64,000 bases of DNA from Aequitasia blattaphilus. Lineage in GTDB: Bacteria; Bacillota; Clostridia; Lachnospirales; Lachnospiraceae. A program made the position numbers and the translations under genes. The stretch's first letter is position 1. Every line of letters starts with the position of its first letter. The DNA lies in NCBI RefSeq assembly GCF_024721305.1, contig NZ_JAMXOD010000002.1:62001-126000 (forward strand). Direction: 5' to 3'. Below are positions 4,150 through 63,486 of this stretch, piece by piece. The notes beneath the pieces were generated by a model that saw only the letters and a program-made list of their open reading frames with translations, did not search any database and was not told where the DNA came from.

Positions 4150-4380
4150 ATGAAACCGCTTAAAAGAAAGAAGAGCATTACCCTTGATGAAGACATTATC
4201 ACAAAAATCGAAGAACTGGCCGAAGAGGATAATCGCAGCTTTAGTCAATATATCAATATGGTATTAGCTGATTGGATTAGAAACACTGAACAGGTTCCGG
4301 ATTACACTACGGTAAAACCGTTAAATAATCAATCGAGAATCCTCCACGAGGAAAAAATCTCTCCTGATCACAAAAAATAA
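4150..4380 (+). CDS. Ribbon-helix-helix (CopG/Arc-like) DNA-binding protein
   Basis: A 76-residue protein with a clear RHH fold: a basic strand (KKSITLDEDI, about 7-16), helix A (IITKIEELAEEDN) and, after the turn residue RSFSQYI, helix B (NMVLADWI). Such proteins dimerise through the strand and bind short tandem DNA boxes. The C-terminal 30 residues are polar and unassigned. It has an AAGGAG site, an extended -10 (TGGTATATT, near 4120), and a terminator right after the stop. No toxin gene follows it, so an antitoxin role is not supported; it is more likely an autoregulated repressor. Confidence 0.75.
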   Translation: MKPLKRKKSITLDEDIITKIEELAEEDNRSFSQYINMVLADWIRNTEQVPDYTTVKPLNNQSRILHEEKISPDHKK

Positions 4381-4386
4381 TTCGTC

Positions 4387-4413
4387 AAAAAAGGGAGCCT
4401 AAGCTCCCTTTTT
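4387..4413. terminator. Bidirectional terminator between the RHH gene and leuA
   Basis: AAAAAAGGGAGC and GCTCCCTTTTT pair around a 4-base loop, with A and T runs on both sides. It can end the plus-strand RHH gene and the minus-strand leuA fusion, whose stop codon overlaps its edge. Confidence 0.85.
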
Positions 4414-6403
4414 AGTATTGGTTACGATATTGTAATGGCGTCATATCATATTCTCTTTTAAAAAGACGATTAAAGTGCTCTACGTTTTGATATCCTACCG
4501 TTAGAGATATATTTTCTACCGTCATACTACTACTCTTTAATAAAGCCTTTGCTTTTTTCATTCGTATCTTTTTTACCAAATCCCCAAATGTCATTCCAGC
4601 TTTTTCTTTAATGTATTTAGAAAGATAAGGTTTCGATAAAAAGAATTGCTCGGATAAATCCTCCAGTGTTACATCAATATAATTTGATTGAATATAGTTT
4701 TGTATTTCAATCATTCTTTTATCCTTTTGGCCATCTTTCTGACTGATTGCGTCAATCTTATTGACTGCAACAATCAGTGCCTCTACCGATGCAGTAATAA
4801 TATCCGCATCAATTCCTACGCCCCACAAATCTTTTCCATTGCATTGGATTCCAACGTAGGCTACCGCTTTCGACGAAGACCCTTTAGTTAGTGAATGTTC
4901 TTCATAATACGTTAATTCATAGCTAATACCAAAATACTGTTTAATGGCATTGCTCACTGCATCTAAACGACCATTTCCAATTGCTGTAATTGTACTGGTT
5001 TCACCTTTGTGTTGAATCGTTACATCTGCATAGATTCCTTCTGCTTTTCTAAAATGGTACTCATCAATATGGAAAATCGGTTTCGTATTGATATAATTAT
5101 CCGAGAAAATCTGATAAACCCACTCTGGCGTTAATTCCTTATGTGCTTTATCGGATACATCTTTCGTCAGATAGCCTACTTCTTCCCGCATTTTCTCTGG
5201 AATACTCATTCCATAAGACTGCTTCAAAATATAACTTACGCCGCCTTTACCAGACTGGCTATTAATTCGTATTACATCAGAATCGTATTTTCGTCCCACG
5301 TCTTCCGGATCAATTGGCAGATAAGGAACCGTCCATTTCTCTTCATTCCGCTCTTCTCTATATGCAATACCTTTTGCAATTGCATCCTGATGAGACCCAC
5401 TAAAGGCAGTAAAAACAAGGTCCCCTGAATACGGCTGGCGCTCATAAACAGTCATTCTTGTTAAGCGCTCATACGCTTCCCGGATTCTTGCCATATCCGA
5501 GAAATCCAAACCAGGATTCACCCCTTGAGAATACATATTCAGTGCTACTGTAATAATATCTACATTTCCTGTTCTCTCACCGTTTCCGAAAAGAGTTCCC
5601 TCGACACGATCAGCACCGGCTAGTACTCCAAGTTCTGCCGTTGCAACCCCTGTTCCTCTGTCATTATGAGGATGCAAGGATAGCACGACATTTTCTCTAT
5701 ATTTCAGATTTTTGTGTACATACTCCAGTTGACACGCAAAAGCATGAGGCATTGCATTTTCAACTGTTGTTGGGATGTTAATAATTGCTTTATTCTCTTG
5801 GGTTGGCTTCCAAACATCTAAAACGGCATTACACACCTCTACCGCATATTCAACCTCTGTTCCCGAAAAGCTTTCAGGGCTATACTCAAAGGTAAAATTC
5901 CCTTCCGTTTCATTTGCCAAATCTCTTAATAGCTTTGCACCTTTAATCGCAATATTTTTGATTTGTTTCTTATCCTTCTTAAATACTTGCTCTCTTTGGG
6001 CTACCGATGTAGAGTTGTAAAGATGTATAACCGCATGTGGCGCTCCCTTTACTGCTTCAAAAGTCTTTCGAATAATATGTTCTCTTGCCTGGGTCAGCAC
6101 TTGTACCGTAACGTCCTTTGGAATCATATTTTTTTCGATTAATGTACGCATAAATTGATATTCTGTCTCAGAAGCAGCCGGAAACCCAACTTCTATTTCT
6201 TTAAAGCCTAAATCTACCAAGAGTTGAAAAAACTCCAACTTCTCTTCTAAACTCATAGGCTCTATCAGCGCCTGATTTCCATCTCTTAAATCAACACTGC
6301 ACCATATTGGTGGCTTTTCTATGTGATCCTTCTTTACCCAATCATAGCTGACAGCAGAAGGCATAAAATACATTTTTTGATATTTTGTGTGGTTTTTCAT
6401 CAT
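4412..6403 (-). CDS. leuA: 2-isopropylmalate synthase fused to a C-terminal AraC-type DNA-binding domain
   Basis: The first step of leucine synthesis joins acetyl-CoA and 2-oxoisovalerate. The 663-residue ORF has three parts. (1) A DRE-TIM metallolyase barrel of the long LeuA type: DLRDGNQ (38-44), HPHNDRG (244-250) and GNGERTGN (273-280). (2) The leucine-sensing allosteric domain (about 440-550), with [13 protein letters not shown] and [11 protein letters not shown]. (3) From residue 564, a complete 100-residue AraC/XylS domain with two helix-turn-helices: [18 protein letters not shown], and [20 protein letters not shown] ahead of MTPLQYR. Usual LeuA of this class ends near 555-560, so part 3 is extra. 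The reading frame is unbroken. Leucine binding to part 2 may control DNA binding by part 3, making a trigger enzyme; that is inference. No leucine T-box is seen upstream. Confidence 0.93.
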
Positions 6404-6450
6404 ATCTTCTCATCTCCCAAATTAAAATTGTTCAATCAAATTGACATTTA

Positions 6451-6470
6451 TTATCCTAACATAAGGGTAA
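6451..6470. promoter_or_regulatory. Imperfect inverted repeat upstream of the leuA fusion
   Basis: TTATCC and GGGTAA arms (one mismatch) flank an 8-base centre about 50 bases upstream of the leuA start. It overlaps the region where the promoter should be; GGATAAT on the minus strand could be a -10. It could be an operator for the AraC-type domain encoded just downstream. Evidence is limited to position and symmetry. Confidence 0.3.
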
Positions 6471-6502
6471 AAAAAAAGAAAGTGATAAATTTAATCACTT
6501 TC
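6468..6502 (-). terminator. Terminator of the ybaK-scp cluster
   Basis: On the minus strand GAAAGTGAT and ATCACTTTC (9 bp, 7-base loop) are followed by a run of nine or ten T. It lies 18 bases past the ybaK-like stop and separates that cluster from leuA. Confidence 0.85.
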
Positions 6503-6520
6503 ATTGATTTATTTTAATCT

Positions 6521-6982
6521 CTATTTCCCAGTATCTACCCATCCGGAGGCATTACTATATTTTTCTAACTCTTCTAATGATAGTTCAATCATACTATTTC
6601 CACTTCCGGCAGCCGGAAAAACAGTTTCATAGCGTTTCAAGGATATATCCAGGTAGACGTCCACCCCCTCTTTAATCCCAAAAGGACACACGCCTCCTAC
6701 TCTATGACCTATTTTCTCTTCTACCACTTCTGCCTTCAACATTCTTGGTTTAATACCAAACACTTCCTTGAATTTCTTATTATCCACCTTCATGTCTCCT
6801 GCAAATAAGACCAAAATCACATCTTCTCCAAGATCAAAGGACAAAGTTTTTGCGATTCTTCCTGGCTCGCATCCCACAGCAAGAGCTGCTTTTTCAACAG
6901 TCTCACAGGATTCCTCCTTTTCAATAATCTGATTTTCCATACTGAATTTTTTAAAATATTCTCTTACTTTATCAATCGACAT
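6521..6982 (-). CDS. YbaK/EbsC-family aminoacyl-tRNA deacylase
   Basis: A 153-residue single-domain YbaK-fold protein. The family clears mischarged tRNA in trans (Cys-tRNAPro or similar). Family features seen are AKTLSFDLGEDVILVLFAGD, a conserved Lys in KVDNKKFKEVFG, and the GGVCPFGIKEGVDVYLD stretch that closes the substrate pocket. I chose the ATG at 6982 because AGGTGA lies 5 bases upstream; a GTG at 6991 would add three residues and abut the scpB stop. It is the last gene of the scpAB cluster. The exact tRNA substrate cannot be read from sequence. Confidence 0.85.
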   Translation of the reverse strand: MSIDKVREYFKKFSMENQIIEKEESCETVEKAALAVGCEPGRIAKTLSFDLGEDVILVLFAGDMKVDNKKFKEVFGIKPRMLKAEVVEEKIGHRVGGVCPFGIKEGVDVYLDISLKRYETVFPAAGSGNSMIELSLEELEKYSNASGWVDTGK

Positions 6983-7576: not shown

Positions 7577-8329
7577 CTATGCTGTTCTCTTCGTTGTAAT
7601 TAAGATATCCTCAAAAGGCTCTTCTTGAACAATTTCAATTACTCCTTCTTTAATCAGCTCCAAAATTGCTAAAAAAGTAACTACAACCTGGGTCTTAGAA
7701 CTTTGCTTTTCTAATAGTTCCCGAAATTTAAAAGAACTTTCTCTTTTGGCATAGCTGCGCACATATTGGACTTTTTCCGACATGCTTACTTCTTCTTTCT
7801 CGATTTTTCCAAAAGAGCTACGTACAGGGTCAATTTTATCTACCCTTTTCTTCATAACATCTTTAAAGATAGCATTCAATTTACTGAGTGTCAAATCCCC
7901 TATCAACTCATCTAAGTCCACCGGTTGAACGTAGTCTTTTACTTCTTTTGGCATATTCTCTTTGCGAAACCAGAGAAGATCTCCTTCTCCTTCACGATCC
8001 TTTAGTTCATAGGACATGAGCTTATAAACTTTGTATTCCAAAAGCTTTTGTACCAACTCTTCTCTTGGATCTTCCTCTTCGCCATCTTCATTTACCTCTT
8101 TGGGCAAAAGCATCTTACACTTAATATCCAGCAAAGTAGCTGCCATTAAGAGAAATTCACTCATGACATTTAAGTCTTCCTTTTCCATTGCCCCGATATA
8201 TTCCATATATTGATTGGTAATTTCTACAATCGGGATATCATAGATATCTATTTTATTCTTATCAATTAAATGAAGCAACAAATCCAAAGGTCCTTCAAAA
8301 ACCTGCAGTTTTACTGGTATACCACTCAT
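7577..8329 (-). CDS. scpA: Segregation and condensation protein A
   Basis: ScpA is the kleisin of the bacterial SMC-ScpAB condensin: its N-terminal part binds the SMC neck and its C-terminal winged helix binds the SMC head. The 250-residue ORF has the family's opening VFEGPLDLLLHLIDKNKIDIYDIPI and the C-terminal VVTFLAILELIKEGVI. An acidic linker (EVNEDGEEEDPREEL) sits between the halves. It has a GGGTGA ribosome site and is followed by scpB in the same operon. Confidence 0.95.
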   Translation of the reverse strand: MSGIPVKLQVFEGPLDLLLHLIDKNKIDIYDIPIVEITNQYMEYIGAMEKEDLNVMSEFLLMAATLLDIKCKMLLPKEVNEDGEEEDPREELVQKLLEYKVYKLMSYELKDREGEGDLLWFRKENMPKEVKDYVQPVDLDELIGDLTLSKLNAIFKDVMKKRVDKIDPVRSSFGKIEKEEVSMSEKVQYVRSYAKRESSFKFRELLEKQSSKTQVVVTFLAILELIKEGVIEIVQEEPFEDILITTKRTA

Positions 8330-13347: not shown

Positions 13348-13376
13348 AGTATAGCCGAAAAATTCAAAAAAGTCAT
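13348..13376 (-). promoter_or_regulatory. Probable promoter of the MFS exporter
   Basis: A good -10, TATACT (13348-13353), has a weak -35, ATGACT (13371-13376), 17 bases away on the minus strand. The -35 overlaps the end of the permease gene. Confidence 0.45.
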
Positions 13377-14725
13377 TAAGATACTGCCTCTATTTTTAGT
13401 TCCTTCCGTTTCTTATGCAGACTAGCATAAACCGGTATCCCTATCACAATTACTCCAATACTTCCCAAGGATAACAACGTGGATTGCAAACCACTTAAAA
13501 AGAGCTGATTGATAATGACAAATATCCCACTCACAATTGCTACAATTGGCACCAAAGGATACAATGGCACCTTATAGGTACGCACTCCATGAGGATCATC
13601 CTTCCTTAGTTTCATAACACCGATAAATGTAAGCGTGTAAAAGGTCCAGCTTGCTATAATTGCTAAATCTGTCAACAGATTAAATTGACCAGACACTGCA
13701 TAAAGTGCACCAATTCCACCGACCAGAAGGATTGAATTCGTAGGCACCTGTGCTTTATTTAACTTTGCCAAAGACGCTGCAAATGGAAAATTCCCTTCAC
13801 TTGCCAGTGAATATGCCACTCTCGATCCAGACAATACAAAGCCATTACAGGAGCCAAATACTGAAACCATAATACCGACTGAAATGATTTTCCCTCCTAT
13901 GTCACCAAATATTTTAATTGCCACTGCAGAAGCCGGTGCAGATAAGGTCGCTAATTCATTTGATGGCAAAACAAAAAGGTAGGCGATATTGATTACAAAA
14001 TAAACAGCCATGATTACCGATACCCCACCTACAATTGCAATGGGTAAATCCCGCCCTGGTTTTTTCATTTCTCCGGCAATTGCTCCTACATTCGTCCATC
14101 CCTCAAAAGCGAACAAAATCGCAACCATAAGCTGGCCTAATACAATGGTTGGATTTAACCCGTCTCCAATCATAGGAGTAAAAATCCCATGATTTCCACC
14201 GCCTCTTACAAATCCGAACACCATTAACAAAATCAGTGGTATCAACTTACAAACTGTAAAAATAACTTGTACACTTCCTCCAACTTTTGAGCCAAGGTTA
14301 TTCAACAACATTATTGTAATAATTACCAAAATAGCAACCGGTACAATATATCCTTCTCCTATAAAGAGTGCCGCCTGCTGCGCAAAAGCAACTGCCAATG
14401 CTGCAATCATCGCAGGATAAAATAAAAGTGTCTGCACCCAGCCAGCCAGAAATCCAACTTTAGGACTGTAAATCTTCTCTAGATATGCAACAATTCCTCC
14501 TGTCTTCGGAATCATGATTGCAACTTCTGCAAAGGTCAATGCTGCCGCAATACTTGCTAATCCTGTAATAATCCAAGCAATCATCCCAAGTCCTGGTGCT
14601 CCTCCTGTGGCGGTATAAATCGCCTGAGGTTTAAAGAATACACCAGAACCTATTACACTGCCTACCACTGTTGCTGTGGCTGTTGCTACTCCCAGATTCT
14701 TTTTTAACTCTTTTTTCTTTTCCAT
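13376..14725 (-). CDS. APC-family amino acid permease under glycine riboswitch control
   Basis: A 449-residue amino acid/polyamine/organocation permease with about 12 membrane segments. TM1 carries the substrate-binding VVGSVIGSGVFF, and the family patterns GGIVAYLEKIYSPKVGFLAGW and FAFEGWTNVGAIAGEMKKPGRDLP follow. I set the start at the ATG at 14725, six bases after GGAGG; the frame stays open further upstream, but that is leader RNA. The glycine riboswitch and terminator just upstream point to glycine, or serine/alanine, as the likely substrate. Direction (import or export) is unknown. Confidence 0.88.
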   Translation of the reverse strand: MEKKKELKKNLGVATATATVVGSVIGSGVFFKPQAIYTATGGAPGLGMIAWIITGLASIAAALTFAEVAIMIPKTGGIVAYLEKIYSPKVGFLAGWVQTLLFYPAMIAALAVAFAQQAALFIGEGYIVPVAILVIITIMLLNNLGSKVGGSVQVIFTVCKLIPLILLMVFGFVRGGGNHGIFTPMIGDGLNPTIVLGQLMVAILFAFEGWTNVGAIAGEMKKPGRDLPIAIVGGVSVIMAVYFVINIAYLFVLPSNELATLSAPASAVAIKIFGDIGGKIISVGIMVSVFGSCNGFVLSGSRVAYSLASEGNFPFAASLAKLNKAQVPTNSILLVGGIGALYAVSGQFNLLTDLAIIASWTFYTLTFIGVMKLRKDDPHGVRTYKVPLYPLVPIVAIVSGIFVIINQLFLSGLQSTLLSLGSIGVIVIGIPVYASLHKKRKELKIEAVS

Positions 14726-14764
14726 CATTGTCCTCCTCTTCTTTATCAAGCAGCTTTTTCCATA

Positions 14765-14812
14765 CAAAAAACAGAGGATACGGCACAAAAATAATTGTGC
14801 CATATCCTCTGT
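14765..14812 (-). terminator. Riboswitch-controlled terminator
   Basis: On the minus strand a very strong hairpin (ACAGAGGATA...TATCCTCTGT, plus GGCACAA/TTGTGCC inside) ends in TTTTTT. It lies between the glycine aptamers and the permease start, so it is the expression platform. Confidence 0.9.
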
Positions 14813-14989
14813 CATGCTACCTGAAAGCGTTACTTCTTCGGTGACCTATTAAAAGGTCTTTCCAGAGTTCCATCCTCAGTTGGTAGGGGTACCTGAGAGT
14901 TTCTAAATCCATCTGGCGGACGAATCAATTGCTCCTTCGGTTTTCATCAAAAATGAAATTTTCCAACTGTATCACCTGTCTCTATTCTT
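14813..14989 (-). ncRNA. Tandem glycine riboswitch
   Basis: Two glycine-aptamer cores lie in a row on the minus strand. Aptamer 1 has CCGAAGGAGCAA (14929-14940) and CTCAGGTA (14890-14897), then CTCTGGA (14861-14867), typical of the linker side. Aptamer 2 has CCGAAGAAG (14833-14841) and TTTCAGGTA (14818-14826). The terminator follows at once. Glycine riboswitches sense free glycine and control glycine cleavage or transport genes. The promoter is at 14996-15024, so the leader starts near 14989. Whether glycine turns the permease on or off cannot be settled by eye. Confidence 0.9.
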
Positions 14990-60523: not shown

Positions 60524-61297
60524 TTAATTTCCACACTCAATGCTTATTGCATTAAATTTATCCAGGAGATTTTCAATGGATTCTTCCTCTTTTTCCTTGC
60601 CTTTTTTATCCAAAACCACCTCTCCCTGGTGCATCATAATCAAGCGATTTCCATATTCAATTGCATAACGTAAATTATGAGTGACCATGATTGTCGTTAA
60701 CTTTTTTTCTCTAACAATTTTATCCGTAAGCTCCATAATTAATTCTGCTGTCTTTGGATCCAGAGCCGCAGTATGCTCATCCAAAATCAAAAATTCAATG
60801 GGTGACATAGTCGCCATTAAAAGAGCCATAGCCTGTCTTTGCCCTCCAGACAAAGCCCCTACCTTTGTATTCAACTTATCTTCCAGCCCAAGACTTAACT
60901 GTTGAAGAAGTTCTTGATAATAGGGGGTTCTGGCTTTATTTGTTCCTCTTGATAAGCCATATATTTTTCCTTTATTATCTGCCAAAGACATATTCTCTAA
61001 AATAGTCATATTAGGGCAGGTTCCTAAGGATGGGTTTTGATATACCCTTCCTATCATTTGATTTCTTTTGTATTCCTTTTCTTTCGATATATTCTTTCCA
61101 TTCACATAAATCTGCCCGTCTTCTAAGGGAATACTTCCACAAATAATGTTTAACAGAGAGGTTTTTCCCGAACCATTACTTCCAACAATGGATAAAAATT
61201 CTCCCTCTTCAATTTTAAGATTAAAATCCTCAAAAAGACACATTTCATTTACTGTGCCCGGATTATAGTATTTTGATATATTTTTCATTTCAAGCAT
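60524..61297 (-). CDS. ABC transporter ATP-binding protein (TrpZ-like)
   Basis: A 257-residue ATPase with Walker A GSNGSGKT, signature LSGGQRQ, Walker B FLILDEHTAALDPK and switch His in MVTHNLRYAIEYG. It belongs to the importer group with the permease and binding protein encoded just upstream, overlapping the permease gene by 8 bases. The operon is headed by a tryptophan T-box, so the substrate is probably tryptophan. Confidence 0.9.
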   Translation of the reverse strand: MLEMKNISKYYNPGTVNEMCLFEDFNLKIEEGEFLSIVGSNGSGKTSLLNIICGSIPLEDGQIYVNGKNISKEKEYKRNQMIGRVYQNPSLGTCPNMTILENMSLADNKGKIYGLSRGTNKARTPYYQELLQQLSLGLEDKLNTKVGALSGGQRQAMALLMATMSPIEFLILDEHTAALDPKTAELIMELTDKIVREKKLTTIMVTHNLRYAIEYGNRLIMMHQGEVVLDKKGKEKEEESIENLLDKFNAISIECGN

Positions 61298-62171
61298 TCT
61301 TTTTCACCTTTGCCTTTCGATCCATGGATAAAACCAATACCACAAGGAACAAAATCGCTGTAATAAAATTCTTTGCCTTTGGATCAAATTTCGCAAGGGC
61401 TACTGCCACACATGCTTTATAAATAATGGAGCCTGCAAATACAGCTAAAGTCGCTTTTATAAAGGTCAATTTCTTTAACAGACTTGTCCCTATAATAACA
61501 CTCGCTAAGCCAATTACCATACTTCCCGTTCCCATAGAAATCTCAAAAAGGCGTTCTTCCTGTGCGAAAATGCATCCCGCCAAAGCAACCAATCCATTTG
61601 AAATAGCAAGTCCTAAGATTTTCACATTTCCTTGATCCTTTGCAAGAGATGTAACTAAAACATCATTATCCCCCACTCCCCGCAGTAAAAGTCCTGATTT
61701 TGTTTTGAGATACAGATCCAGCAAAACCTTACTAACCGCTGCAATCACAAAAATAATCAAAAGTGTTGCATACGGTTTGATTCCTTTTGGCAACGCTTCC
61801 ACTAAAGCATTTCCTTTGAAAATACTGTTTTGAGAAAACAAAGGAACATTTGATGTTCCAGCAATATACAAGTTTACAGACCAAAGCGCTGTCATCATAA
61901 TAATTCCCGATAACAAGTCTCTTACTTTGGCTTTCACATGAATCAGTCCAGTAACCGCCCCGGCGCACATTCCAACTAAAAATGCTATCGGCAGTGTTAC
62001 AAAAGGATTTACTCCCTTCGTAATCAAAAGTGCCGTTACAGCTGCTCCCAACGGAAAACTTCCATCCACTGTCAAATCAGGAAAATCCAATATCTTATAG
62101 GTGATATAAACCCCCAACCCTAAAATCCCATAAATTAGTCCTTGCTCTAATATGGATATCAAAAAACTCAT
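61290..62171 (-). CDS. ABC transporter permease (TrpY-like)
   Basis: A 293-residue membrane protein with about eight hydrophobic helices, related to the branched-chain amino acid (LivH-type) permeases: GVYITYKILDFPDLTVDGSFPLGAAV near the start and GLAISNGLVALAGCIFAQEERLFEI later. It follows the binding protein gene directly and overlaps the ATPase gene by 8 bases. Likely tryptophan uptake by T-box context. Confidence 0.9.
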   Translation of the reverse strand: MSFLISILEQGLIYGILGLGVYITYKILDFPDLTVDGSFPLGAAVTALLITKGVNPFVTLPIAFLVGMCAGAVTGLIHVKAKVRDLLSGIIMMTALWSVNLYIAGTSNVPLFSQNSIFKGNALVEALPKGIKPYATLLIIFVIAAVSKVLLDLYLKTKSGLLLRGVGDNDVLVTSLAKDQGNVKILGLAISNGLVALAGCIFAQEERLFEISMGTGSMVIGLASVIIGTSLLKKLTFIKATLAVFAGSIIYKACVAVALAKFDPKAKNFITAILFLVVLVLSMDRKAKVKKNA

Positions 62172-63185
62172 TTACTTCACCTCAATACTTTCAAAGCTTT
62201 CTACTGCTGTATCCATCAATTCATTACTGATTTTAATATCAAGATTTTTGGAAACCTCCAAATTTACATAAAACCCTGGTTCTGAAATTGTCTCGAATGG
62301 TATTCCAGAGGCTTTTTCCTCTCCCTTTAGTATCTTTGCCGCCATTACCCCTGTTTGTTCTCCAAGAGCTATATAGTCAATCCCCTGTGCTGCAAGGCAG
62401 CCAATCTTAACTTGTTCAATTTCACTTCCAAACACCGGAATGTTTTTCGCATTTGCCTTATCCAATATCCCTGGAAGGGATGCAACTACTGTATTATCTG
62501 TTAGATTCGACACACAGTCTATCCCTGTAAGTAAAGTTTCTGTCGCAAGAGCAACCTCCGAAGTATTATTCACTCCCACCTCTTTTATTTCAAAATCAAA
62601 CTCTGGTGCCAGCTCTTTATATTCTTCAATTGCTGCCACAGAATTCGCCTCACTTGTTGTATACATAATTCCAATCGTCTTTGCTTTTGGTAAAATCTCA
62701 CGAATCATCTCCAACTGCTCTTTTACCGGAAGCTGATCTGAGGTTCCAGTTACTTCTCCCACTCCATTGCCATCTGCATCTGACAGTTCTGCCGCTACAG
62801 GATCCGTTACTGCTGTGTAAACCACCGGAATATCTGTATCCATTGCCGCATTATAAGCACTTTGTGCACTAGGTGTTGCAATGGCACAAACCATATCCAC
62901 TTTACCCGACACAAATCCGTCTGAAATTTGGGATACAACACCCATATCTGCTTGTCCGTTTTTATATTGAACTGTTAAGTTTTCTCCTTCAACAATTCCT
63001 TCTTTTTTTAAGCCCGCTAAAAAACCCTCTCTACAGTTATCCAAAGAACCATGCTCTGCAAACTGAGAAATACCGATTTCATAGCTTTCCTTTCCCTCTT
63101 CTTTTGTTTCTTGCTTCTGACAACCTACTGCTAATCCTGCTACTAATGCAACTCCTAATAATCCTGCTACGAATCTCTTTTTCAT
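62172..63185 (-). CDS. ABC transporter substrate-binding lipoprotein (TrpX-like)
   Basis: A 337-residue extracellular solute-binding lipoprotein. Signal peptide and lipobox: KKRFVAGLLGVALVAGLAVGC with Cys22 as the lipid anchor, then a Gln/Glu-rich linker. The rest is the ABC_sub_bind (DUF534) type, with IATPSAQSAY and VVYTAVTDPVAAEL. In streptococci this family is TrpX, the tryptophan-binding part of TrpXYZ. The T-box upstream is a tryptophan one, which agrees. First gene of the three-gene operon. Confidence 0.92.
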   Translation of the reverse strand: MKKRFVAGLLGVALVAGLAVGCQKQETKEEGKESYEIGISQFAEHGSLDNCREGFLAGLKKEGIVEGENLTVQYKNGQADMGVVSQISDGFVSGKVDMVCAIATPSAQSAYNAAMDTDIPVVYTAVTDPVAAELSDADGNGVGEVTGTSDQLPVKEQLEMIREILPKAKTIGIMYTTSEANSVAAIEEYKELAPEFDFEIKEVGVNNTSEVALATETLLTGIDCVSNLTDNTVVASLPGILDKANAKNIPVFGSEIEQVKIGCLAAQGIDYIALGEQTGVMAAKILKGEEKASGIPFETISEPGFYVNLEVSKNLDIKISNELMDTAVESFESIEVK

Positions 63186-63216: not shown

Positions 63217-63251
63217 TAAAAAACCGCCCCAAACCAAAGGTTTGAGGCGGT
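63217..63251 (-). terminator. T-box terminator
   Basis: ACCGCC...GGTTTG/CAAACC...GGCGGT hairpin (13 bp with one mismatch) followed by TTTTTTAG on the minus strand. The T-box sequence lies just upstream and can form the competing antiterminator. Confidence 0.92.
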
Positions 63252-63486
63252 AATAATTAACTATTATCGCGGTACCACTCAAATTGACAAAATGTCCACT
63301 CGCTTATGTACAATCATACATACCAAATTGATAACGGGTTTGGTTCCCGACACACCATACTTTCCATTTCAGGCGGTCCTCAAAAGTCCATTCAATCTTC
63401 TTCTCATACAGCAATCCCACCACCTGCTGCTCTCTTAAATGATTTTCTGAAAATCTACTACTCTTTCTCATCGGTTTCTTTTATTA
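63217..63486 (-). ncRNA. Tryptophan T-box riboswitch
   Basis: The leader of the TrpXYZ-like operon. The T-box sequence AGTGGTACCGCG lies at 63268-63279 and overlaps the terminator region. Stem I features lie upstream, with an AGTA-type box and GCAGCAGG. The specifier is read as TGG (63388-63390) in GAATGGACTTTTG, a Trp codon followed by a purine, so uncharged tRNATrp should turn on transcription. The gene identity and the specifier agree. Confidence 0.92.

Follow-up and report, generated by a model that had tools for sequence, protein, structure and literature searches.

To our knowledge, few well-known trigger enzymes carry a DNA-binding domain of their own. One of these is PutA, described as a repressor (PMC6978683); another is BirA, likewise described as an enzyme that also acts as a repressor. 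In both, a single polypeptide combines an enzyme with control of the genes of its own pathway. The DNA-binding folds of PutA and BirA differ from the AraC type. An AraC-type HTH is found within an enzyme in Escherichia coli Ada, which repairs DNA as a methyltransferase and switches on its own expression. Among AraC/XylS proteins, class II activators such as AraC and RhaS, along with YesN-type domains (3lsg, 6swi), possess a complete two-HTH domain, and the sites of AraC and RhaS are direct repeats whose two units adjoin the -35 element and are separated by about two turns of the helix. Two such domains bound to direct repeats placed there recruit polymerase. The usual effector domains of this family are of types that differ from biosynthetic enzymes. 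T-box control of branched-chain amino acid synthesis is known in Clostridia (PMC2494555). Such a leader (RF00230) on leuA controls its expression by leucine status.

Here we describe LeuA-AraC, a protein of Lachnospiraceae. It shares the catalytic, post-catalytic and allosteric domains and the active-site residues of LeuA of the PRK03739 subfamily (1sr9, 3fig), but differs from an ordinary LeuA in having an extra C-terminal AraC-type domain and in that the T-box is exchanged for, or supplemented by, a protein operator. Its AraC-type domain and direct-repeat site resemble those of the class II activators, whereas a biosynthetic enzyme presumably serves as its sensor, in place of the effector domain usual in AraC/XylS proteins. 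Like PutA and BirA, it is predicted to unite an enzyme and the control of its own pathway's genes; however, those two belong to other pathways and are repressors, whereas for LeuA-AraC activation looks more likely. With Ada it shares an AraC-type HTH within an enzyme and, as we propose, positive autoregulation, but Ada is switched irreversibly by self-methylation, whereas LeuA-AraC would be a reversible metabolite sensor. Similarly, the T-box leader is an RNA that senses tRNA charging, in contrast to a protein that is proposed to sense a metabolite. Enzyme-regulators as a kind are already known because of PutA, BirA and Ada; what appears to be new is that a predicted trigger enzyme of the AraC type catalyses the committed step towards leucine and has an operator that alternates with the T-box. 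In a literature search that covered few subscription papers, we found no report of an isopropylmalate synthase-AraC/HTH fusion or of an enzyme-AraC trigger enzyme.

The fused gene and its protein

The analysed DNA, termed the window below, is a stretch of 64,000 nt from Aequitasia blattaphilus (NZ_JAMXOD010000002.1, positions 62,001-126,000; assembly GCF_024721305.1). An earlier note, made from the letters of this DNA, had claimed an unbroken 663-codon frame that runs from LeuA into an AraC domain. The frame is confirmed at 4412-6403, open throughout on the minus strand (the note had given no strand), with the plus strand there being stop-rich. Translation may begin at the second ATG, at 6400, as in most aligned relatives. 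The features of the gene are:

4412-6403, minus strand: leuA-araC, fused 2-isopropylmalate synthase/AraC-type protein, 663 aa (open frame plus Pfam/NCBIfam)
5477-6307, minus strand: HMGL-like catalytic domain, residues 33-309 (Pfam, 241.7 bits)
residues 328-394 of LeuA-AraC, minus strand: IPMS_D2 (Pfam)
4754-5137, minus strand: LeuA_dimer allosteric domain, residues 423-550 (Pfam, 94.7 bits)
4715-4753, minus strand: variable linker, residues ~551-563, of low conservation and low pLDDT
4415-4714, minus strand: AraC-type two-HTH domain, residues ~564-663
4388-4413, no strand assigned: terminator-like hairpin at the 3' end of leuA-araC, common to it and the convergent ORF 4150-4380

The ORF at 4150-4380 encodes 76 aa on the plus strand and converges on leuA-araC at this hairpin.

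The claim of a complete two-HTH domain at residues 564-663 likewise held, as HTH_18 spans 80 of its 80 model positions (residues 583-662, 76.1 bits against a cut-off of 33.6), with HTH_AraC recovered at residues 622-661 (Pfam). Residues 5-549 correspond to the 2-isopropylmalate synthase model PRK03739 (NCBIfam, 810 bits), and the LeuA portion has the RD, HxH and GxGERxG motifs in its HMGL-like domain, as well as the LeuA_dimer domain. Sequence searches against solved structures aligned residues 28-518 with 2-isopropylmalate synthase (1sr9/3fig, which we take to be the Mycobacterium tuberculosis enzyme) and residues 568-661 with the AraC-type domains of response regulators (6swi, 3lsg). As far as sequence can tell, the C-terminal portion thus has the marks of the AraC/XylS family, namely a two-HTH domain of ~100 residues and a direct-repeat site near the -35 region. 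An AlphaFold2 model built with 16 sequences is modest overall (mean pLDDT 72.4, pTM 0.52); it places seven helices over residues 562-662, in a block with pLDDT of 75-90, after a loose, low-confidence linker at 555-560. Within the AraC domain of the model, the helices at 591-602 and 641-652 presumably serve for recognition.

Conservation of the enzyme and of the AraC domain

All 101 fused proteins agree at thirteen positions: R40, D41, E177, H244, H246, H338, Y373, GER 275-277 and GNG 476-478. In LeuA, which joins acetyl-CoA to 2-ketoisovalerate and is inhibited by leucine, these positions and the above motifs have active-site or allosteric roles, and the retention of the active-site residues is consistent with an active enzyme. 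The A. blattaphilus genome has a single other, weaker HMGL-like gene (PF00682) and no second isopropylmalate synthase, in that the LeuA-AraC query matches only itself at E 1e-30. Its leuC and leuD genes adjoin each other, elsewhere in the genome than leuA-araC. Two other genomes (G126 and G073) combine a fused LeuA with a second, unfused LeuA that is ~50% identical to the LeuA-AraC query.

The mean frequency of the majority residue in the fused proteins is 0.744 in the AraC domain and 0.730 in LeuA_dimer, with 0.416 in the linker (residues 551-565). The dN/dS ratio of the AraC domain is 0.005-0.031 in the 7 of 16 close pairs with finite dS, these being rough values with several dS above 1. By these sequence measures the AraC domain is under purifying selection.

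Distribution and origin of the fusion

The earlier note had held that a lack of homologous fusions in related genomes would speak against its reading. Such fusions were found as one frame in at least 90 of 398 genomes of a family-wide sample (full-length matches listed, down to E 1e-248; the match in genome G455 is cut at residue 584) and at 14 of the 20 named-record loci. Across 295 genomes sampled from the whole order, a match to residue 660 or beyond was obtained in at least 17 of the 48 that belong to the window's family, and in none from other families among the matches listed. Full-length fusions among the matches listed for a phylum sample of 398 genomes came from three genomes of the family (G000, G041 and G005) and from G950; strongly diverged fusions could escape the matches listed in all three samples. 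G950 lies outside the window's class and has the fusion together with an operator (1 mismatch) and a T-box motif (L266, G950:C22:39500-44500); either all of these were transferred together or the contig is misplaced. The named-record loci with one open frame include Extibacter muris DSM 28560 and several Lachnospiraceae; the other six are cut by the contig end (L023), broken in frame (L015), split (L021) or unfused (L018, L019 and L022).

A gene tree of 165 rows, from which 14 of the 20 named-record loci were left out, requires nine changes between the AraC-bearing and unfused states, at least four of them forced by well-supported branches, with a support of 63 for the deep split. The larger half of the tree holds 102 of the 103 fused rows and has 13 unfused rows nested within it. 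A single gain followed by repeated losses fits this distribution, but is not proven by it.

A direct-repeat operator next to the promoter

The segment 6404-6520, named in the earlier note as the stretch on which to try DNA binding, proved to hold a conserved AraC-type direct-repeat operator at 6483-6517. In the upstream alignment of near relatives it stands out by its conservation against the more distal sequence, which varies. The operator is a direct repeat of ATTAAAATAnATCAA with a period of 22-23 bp, followed by TGnTAnnAT 33 bp past the start of unit 2:

6505-6517, minus strand: operator unit 1, TTAAAATAAATCA, conserved repeat
6483-6494, minus strand: operator unit 2, TTAAATTTATCA, 23 bp after unit 1 and adjoining the presumed -35 region
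6453-6461, minus strand: extended -10 element, TGTTAGGAT, 33 bp downstream of the unit 2 start
6478-6502, no strand assigned: inverted repeat GAAAGTGAT-N7-ATCACTTTC in the operator, terminator-like, with its T run on the minus strand

Operator and extended -10 together have the layout of a predicted class II activator site of the AraC type. In a search with a 31-mer pattern of 27 specified positions, where an operator was counted as present at 5 or fewer mismatches, 79 of the 97 fused loci with an operator (among those from G genomes, 66 of 84) had an offset of exactly 55 bp between the start of the 31-mer and TGnTAnnRT, and five had one of 54 or 56 bp. This count of the spacing is unselected; the promoter profile, by comparison, was drawn from 69 distinct loci out of 70 picked for TG at a fixed place, so that its TG is invariant by selection. 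The -35 element in the profile is weak, with at most 3 of 6 matches in 48 of 69 loci, and 4 or more in 21 of 69 versus 16% expected. Since this match is somewhat better than random, activation is not certain. A sigma-70 scan of 4300-6700 did not return the leuA-araC promoter of the window. The distance from operator to start codon ranges from 43 to 823 bp across the operator-bearing fused loci.

In the window and its close kin, unit 2 lies in the inverted repeat that is followed by T's, and therefore the operator may double as a terminator. The inverted repeat, whose 21-bp core occurs once in the 3.2-Mb genome, may also end the transcript of the upstream gene. That the operator is a mere terminator was rejected, given that distant fused loci lose the T run but keep the repeats and their spacing.

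The operator accompanies the AraC domain

We compared 101 fused loci, of which 17 came from the order-wide sample (6 of these recurring in the family-wide sample) and 84 were others, with 56 unfused orthologues. The fused class takes in L039, L040, L121, L137, L166, L169 and L173; the split loci L191 and L198 and the named-record loci L005-L024 are excluded from both counts. The operator was recovered in 84 of the 101 fused loci, none of the 56 unfused orthologues and none of 303 dinucleotide shuffles, the best of which had 6 mismatches (Fisher p 1e-27 for operator versus fusion, with kinship ignored). The tree offers four independent supported pairs, in which the operator goes the same way as the fusion in 3.1 and the opposite way in none, on average; the sign tests are not significant for either operator or T-box. 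The operator is absent from all 13 unfused rows that are nested among the fused ones in the larger half of the tree, where the pattern has 10-12 mismatches. In the proteins of the 84 operator-bearing loci, no substitution is seen at Y593, S595, G603, E642, F644, R646 or F648; K596 and H643 are each replaced in one. The earlier note's suggestion of a trigger enzyme, an enzyme that also binds DNA, thus gains indirect support from an operator that tracks the AraC domain across ~160 loci.

The named-record loci follow the same pattern. The operator lies within 900 bp of 13 of their 15 genes classed as fused, and in the other two, L008 and L009, an extra gene (~4964-6004) stands between operator and leuA, with the operator and -10 element persisting 1.04 kb upstream. 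The intervening gene of L008 is hydrolase-like (TIGR02427, 73 bits, below the cut-off). Both the broken locus L015 and the split locus L021 have the operator, and the unfused L018, L019 and L022 have the T-box motif.

Natural variants of the fused gene are also found. Of the 17 fused loci below the operator threshold, L128 has just 47 bp of upstream sequence, and 10 of the other 16 have at least one unit-like match to a regular expression; the same expression had no match upstream of L162, L167, L168, L178, L180 and L184. In L180 the recognition helices have decayed, with EEEFSA replacing KPYLSK in helix 1 and NVAEFEQ replacing NVEHFNR in helix 2. There the operator is absent and the T-box motif is kept, which makes L180 the only operator-less one among the 15 fused loci with a T-box motif, although this is a single case from a genome rated 89% complete. 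In the split loci L021, L191 and L198, the linker is where the AraC frame departs from that of LeuA (in L021 next to nine consecutive A's, ~7600-7680), as a result of gene fission, slippage or assembly error. Their operators have 2 mismatches in L021, 1 in L191 and 6, hence operator-like, in L198.

Exchange with the T-box

A T-box motif is present upstream of 43 of the 56 unfused leuA loci versus 15 of the 101 fused ones. Replacement of the T-box is incomplete because both elements coexist at 14 fused loci, with the operator always upstream of the T-box motif. Neither element was detected in 13 of the 56 unfused loci. The Rfam model RF00230 matched 8 of 15 unfused and 1 of 14 fused loci scanned (L028), with no match at the leuA of the window or at the split locus L021; the 900 bp upstream of the window's leuA (L027) also lack the T-box motif. 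Where the T-box was displaced, the cell would now measure free leucine or metabolites of the pathway instead of the charging of tRNA. The exchange of an RNA attenuator and a putative protein switch can be followed at one gene, with loci that combine the two and domain-lost, split and decayed loci all visible.

Predicted genome-wide targets and leuC

A stringent scan of 24 fusion-bearing whole genomes with the 31-mer (at most 3 mismatches) returned 22 matches in 19 genomes, with none for the reversed pattern used as control. Nineteen of these lie upstream of leuA-araC and three upstream of leuC, the gene for the enzyme that follows LeuA in leucine synthesis. The five genomes without a stringent match belong to two genera whose leuA operators have diverged (4-7 mismatches). 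All three leuC operators are from one genus, g2, and lie ~100 bp upstream of leuC, whose identity was supported by TIGR02083 in the two of three that were scanned (cut-off 611 bits; scores of 726 and 716). In total, 5 of the 7 genomes of g2 have the operator or a variant at leuC, each with an extended -10 at an offset of 55-57; the two variants are marked by a spacing that is longer by 1 bp or by a single good unit, and two further g2 genomes have none. The leuC upstream regions were scored in 23 of the 24 fusion-bearing genomes (L080-L102; G102 was left out), and the operator was absent from the other 16, including that of A. blattaphilus. With a relaxed pattern, scanned in 16 genomes, A. blattaphilus yielded 4 matches versus 2 for the control, only that at leuA being near-perfect. 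A wider regulon in this species was thus rejected, with no convincing second target above the control noise.

Proposed mechanism and alternative explanations

There is good reason to believe that LeuA-AraC both works as a 2-isopropylmalate synthase and acts as a transcription factor on its own gene, and such self-control is very probably at work in A. blattaphilus and many of its relatives. We infer enzyme activity, DNA binding, occupancy of the operator by the dimer, dependence on leucine and activation in preference to repression from sequence features. LeuA is a dimer, and each subunit would carry its C-terminal AraC-type domain on a flexible linker, so that the two domains could occupy the two direct-repeat units, 22-23 bp apart, adjoining the -35 region. 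The leucine-free enzyme would most likely contact RNA polymerase and activate the promoter with its extended -10 and weak -35. Since LeuA is dimeric and its allosteric domain adjoins the linker, leucine could reposition the DNA-binding domains; by filling the allosteric domain it would inhibit catalysis and turn off activation in one move. In one genus LeuA-AraC would also control leuCD. It appears to have displaced the T-box leader of the unfused leuA in most lineages, and to sit above a T-box in some.

This mechanism has to be weighed against autorepression, wherein leucine-bound LeuA-AraC on the operator beside the -35 region would block the promoter. A protein on unit 2, which adjoins the -35 region, could block the promoter, corepression by the end product would make sense for a biosynthetic gene, and the -35 matches somewhat better than random. 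However, the -35 is weak while the -10 is extended, the sigma-70 scan misses the window's promoter, and an operator-to--10 offset fixed in 79 of 97 loci exceeds the needs of a repressor; we accordingly consider autorepression unlikely, but deserving of attention. A similarly small share of our belief goes to a signal other than leucine, such as 2-ketoisovalerate, acetyl-CoA, 2-isopropylmalate (which is sensed by yeast Leu3) or the catalytic state. The catalytic and allosteric domains are both conserved and nothing singles out leucine, but the AraC domain is attached directly after LeuA_dimer, the leucine site of the 2-isopropylmalate synthase family.

The AraC domain might alternatively be a passenger or a protein-interaction module, with the operator being that of another regulator or only a terminator. 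DNA binding by LeuA-AraC is, after all, a prediction, AraC-type domains are abundant in the A. blattaphilus genome (40 HTH_18 matches), and in the window a terminator-like hairpin includes unit 2. Against this, the operator tracks the domain and not the gene, being missing from all 56 unfused loci, kept in split loci and absent along with decayed helices; the domain is under purifying selection, with near-invariant recognition helices, and the repeats and spacing outlast the T run in distant fused loci. Selection, operator, genome specificity, T-box exchange and the natural variants together make a passenger domain very unlikely. Finally, frames do break in the relatives L015, L021, L191 and L198 (no break was found in the window), as might be expected if the fusion were an assembly artefact or a recent gene-model accident. 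Yet one open frame recurs in at least 17 of 48 and at least 90 of 398 family genomes and in 14 of 20 named-record loci; because of this recurrence and the AlphaFold2 model, the fusion is neither chance nor a frameshift artefact, and we reject that explanation as having a negligible chance of being correct.

On the best reading, LeuA-AraC would be a trigger enzyme that regulates itself and has taken the place of tRNA-sensing attenuation or been added to it. We lean, by a narrow measure, towards the full picture in which the enzyme of the committed step is its own reversible metabolite-sensing activator, with leucine setting both its rate and its copy number, and in one genus leuCD too, and with the T-box displaced in many lineages. 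LeuA is a classical feedback enzyme, and its fused form is present in at least 90 of the 398 sampled family genomes, with an operator defined well enough to test. It is a candidate leucine sensor for anaerobes, and its operator and two putative recognition helices provide a ready system for the study of how an enzyme acquires a regulon.

Other regulatory RNAs in the window

Two further RNA elements were observed on the minus strand of the window. A T-box leader at 63240-63480 lies upstream of the ORFs 60524-63185, which encode an ABC transporter with a TrpX-like binding protein (268.5 bits, below the cut-off of 390). Likewise, two tandem glycine riboswitch aptamers at 14807-14975 lie at the start of the ORF 13376-14815, which encodes an amino-acid permease (TIGR00911, below the cut-off).
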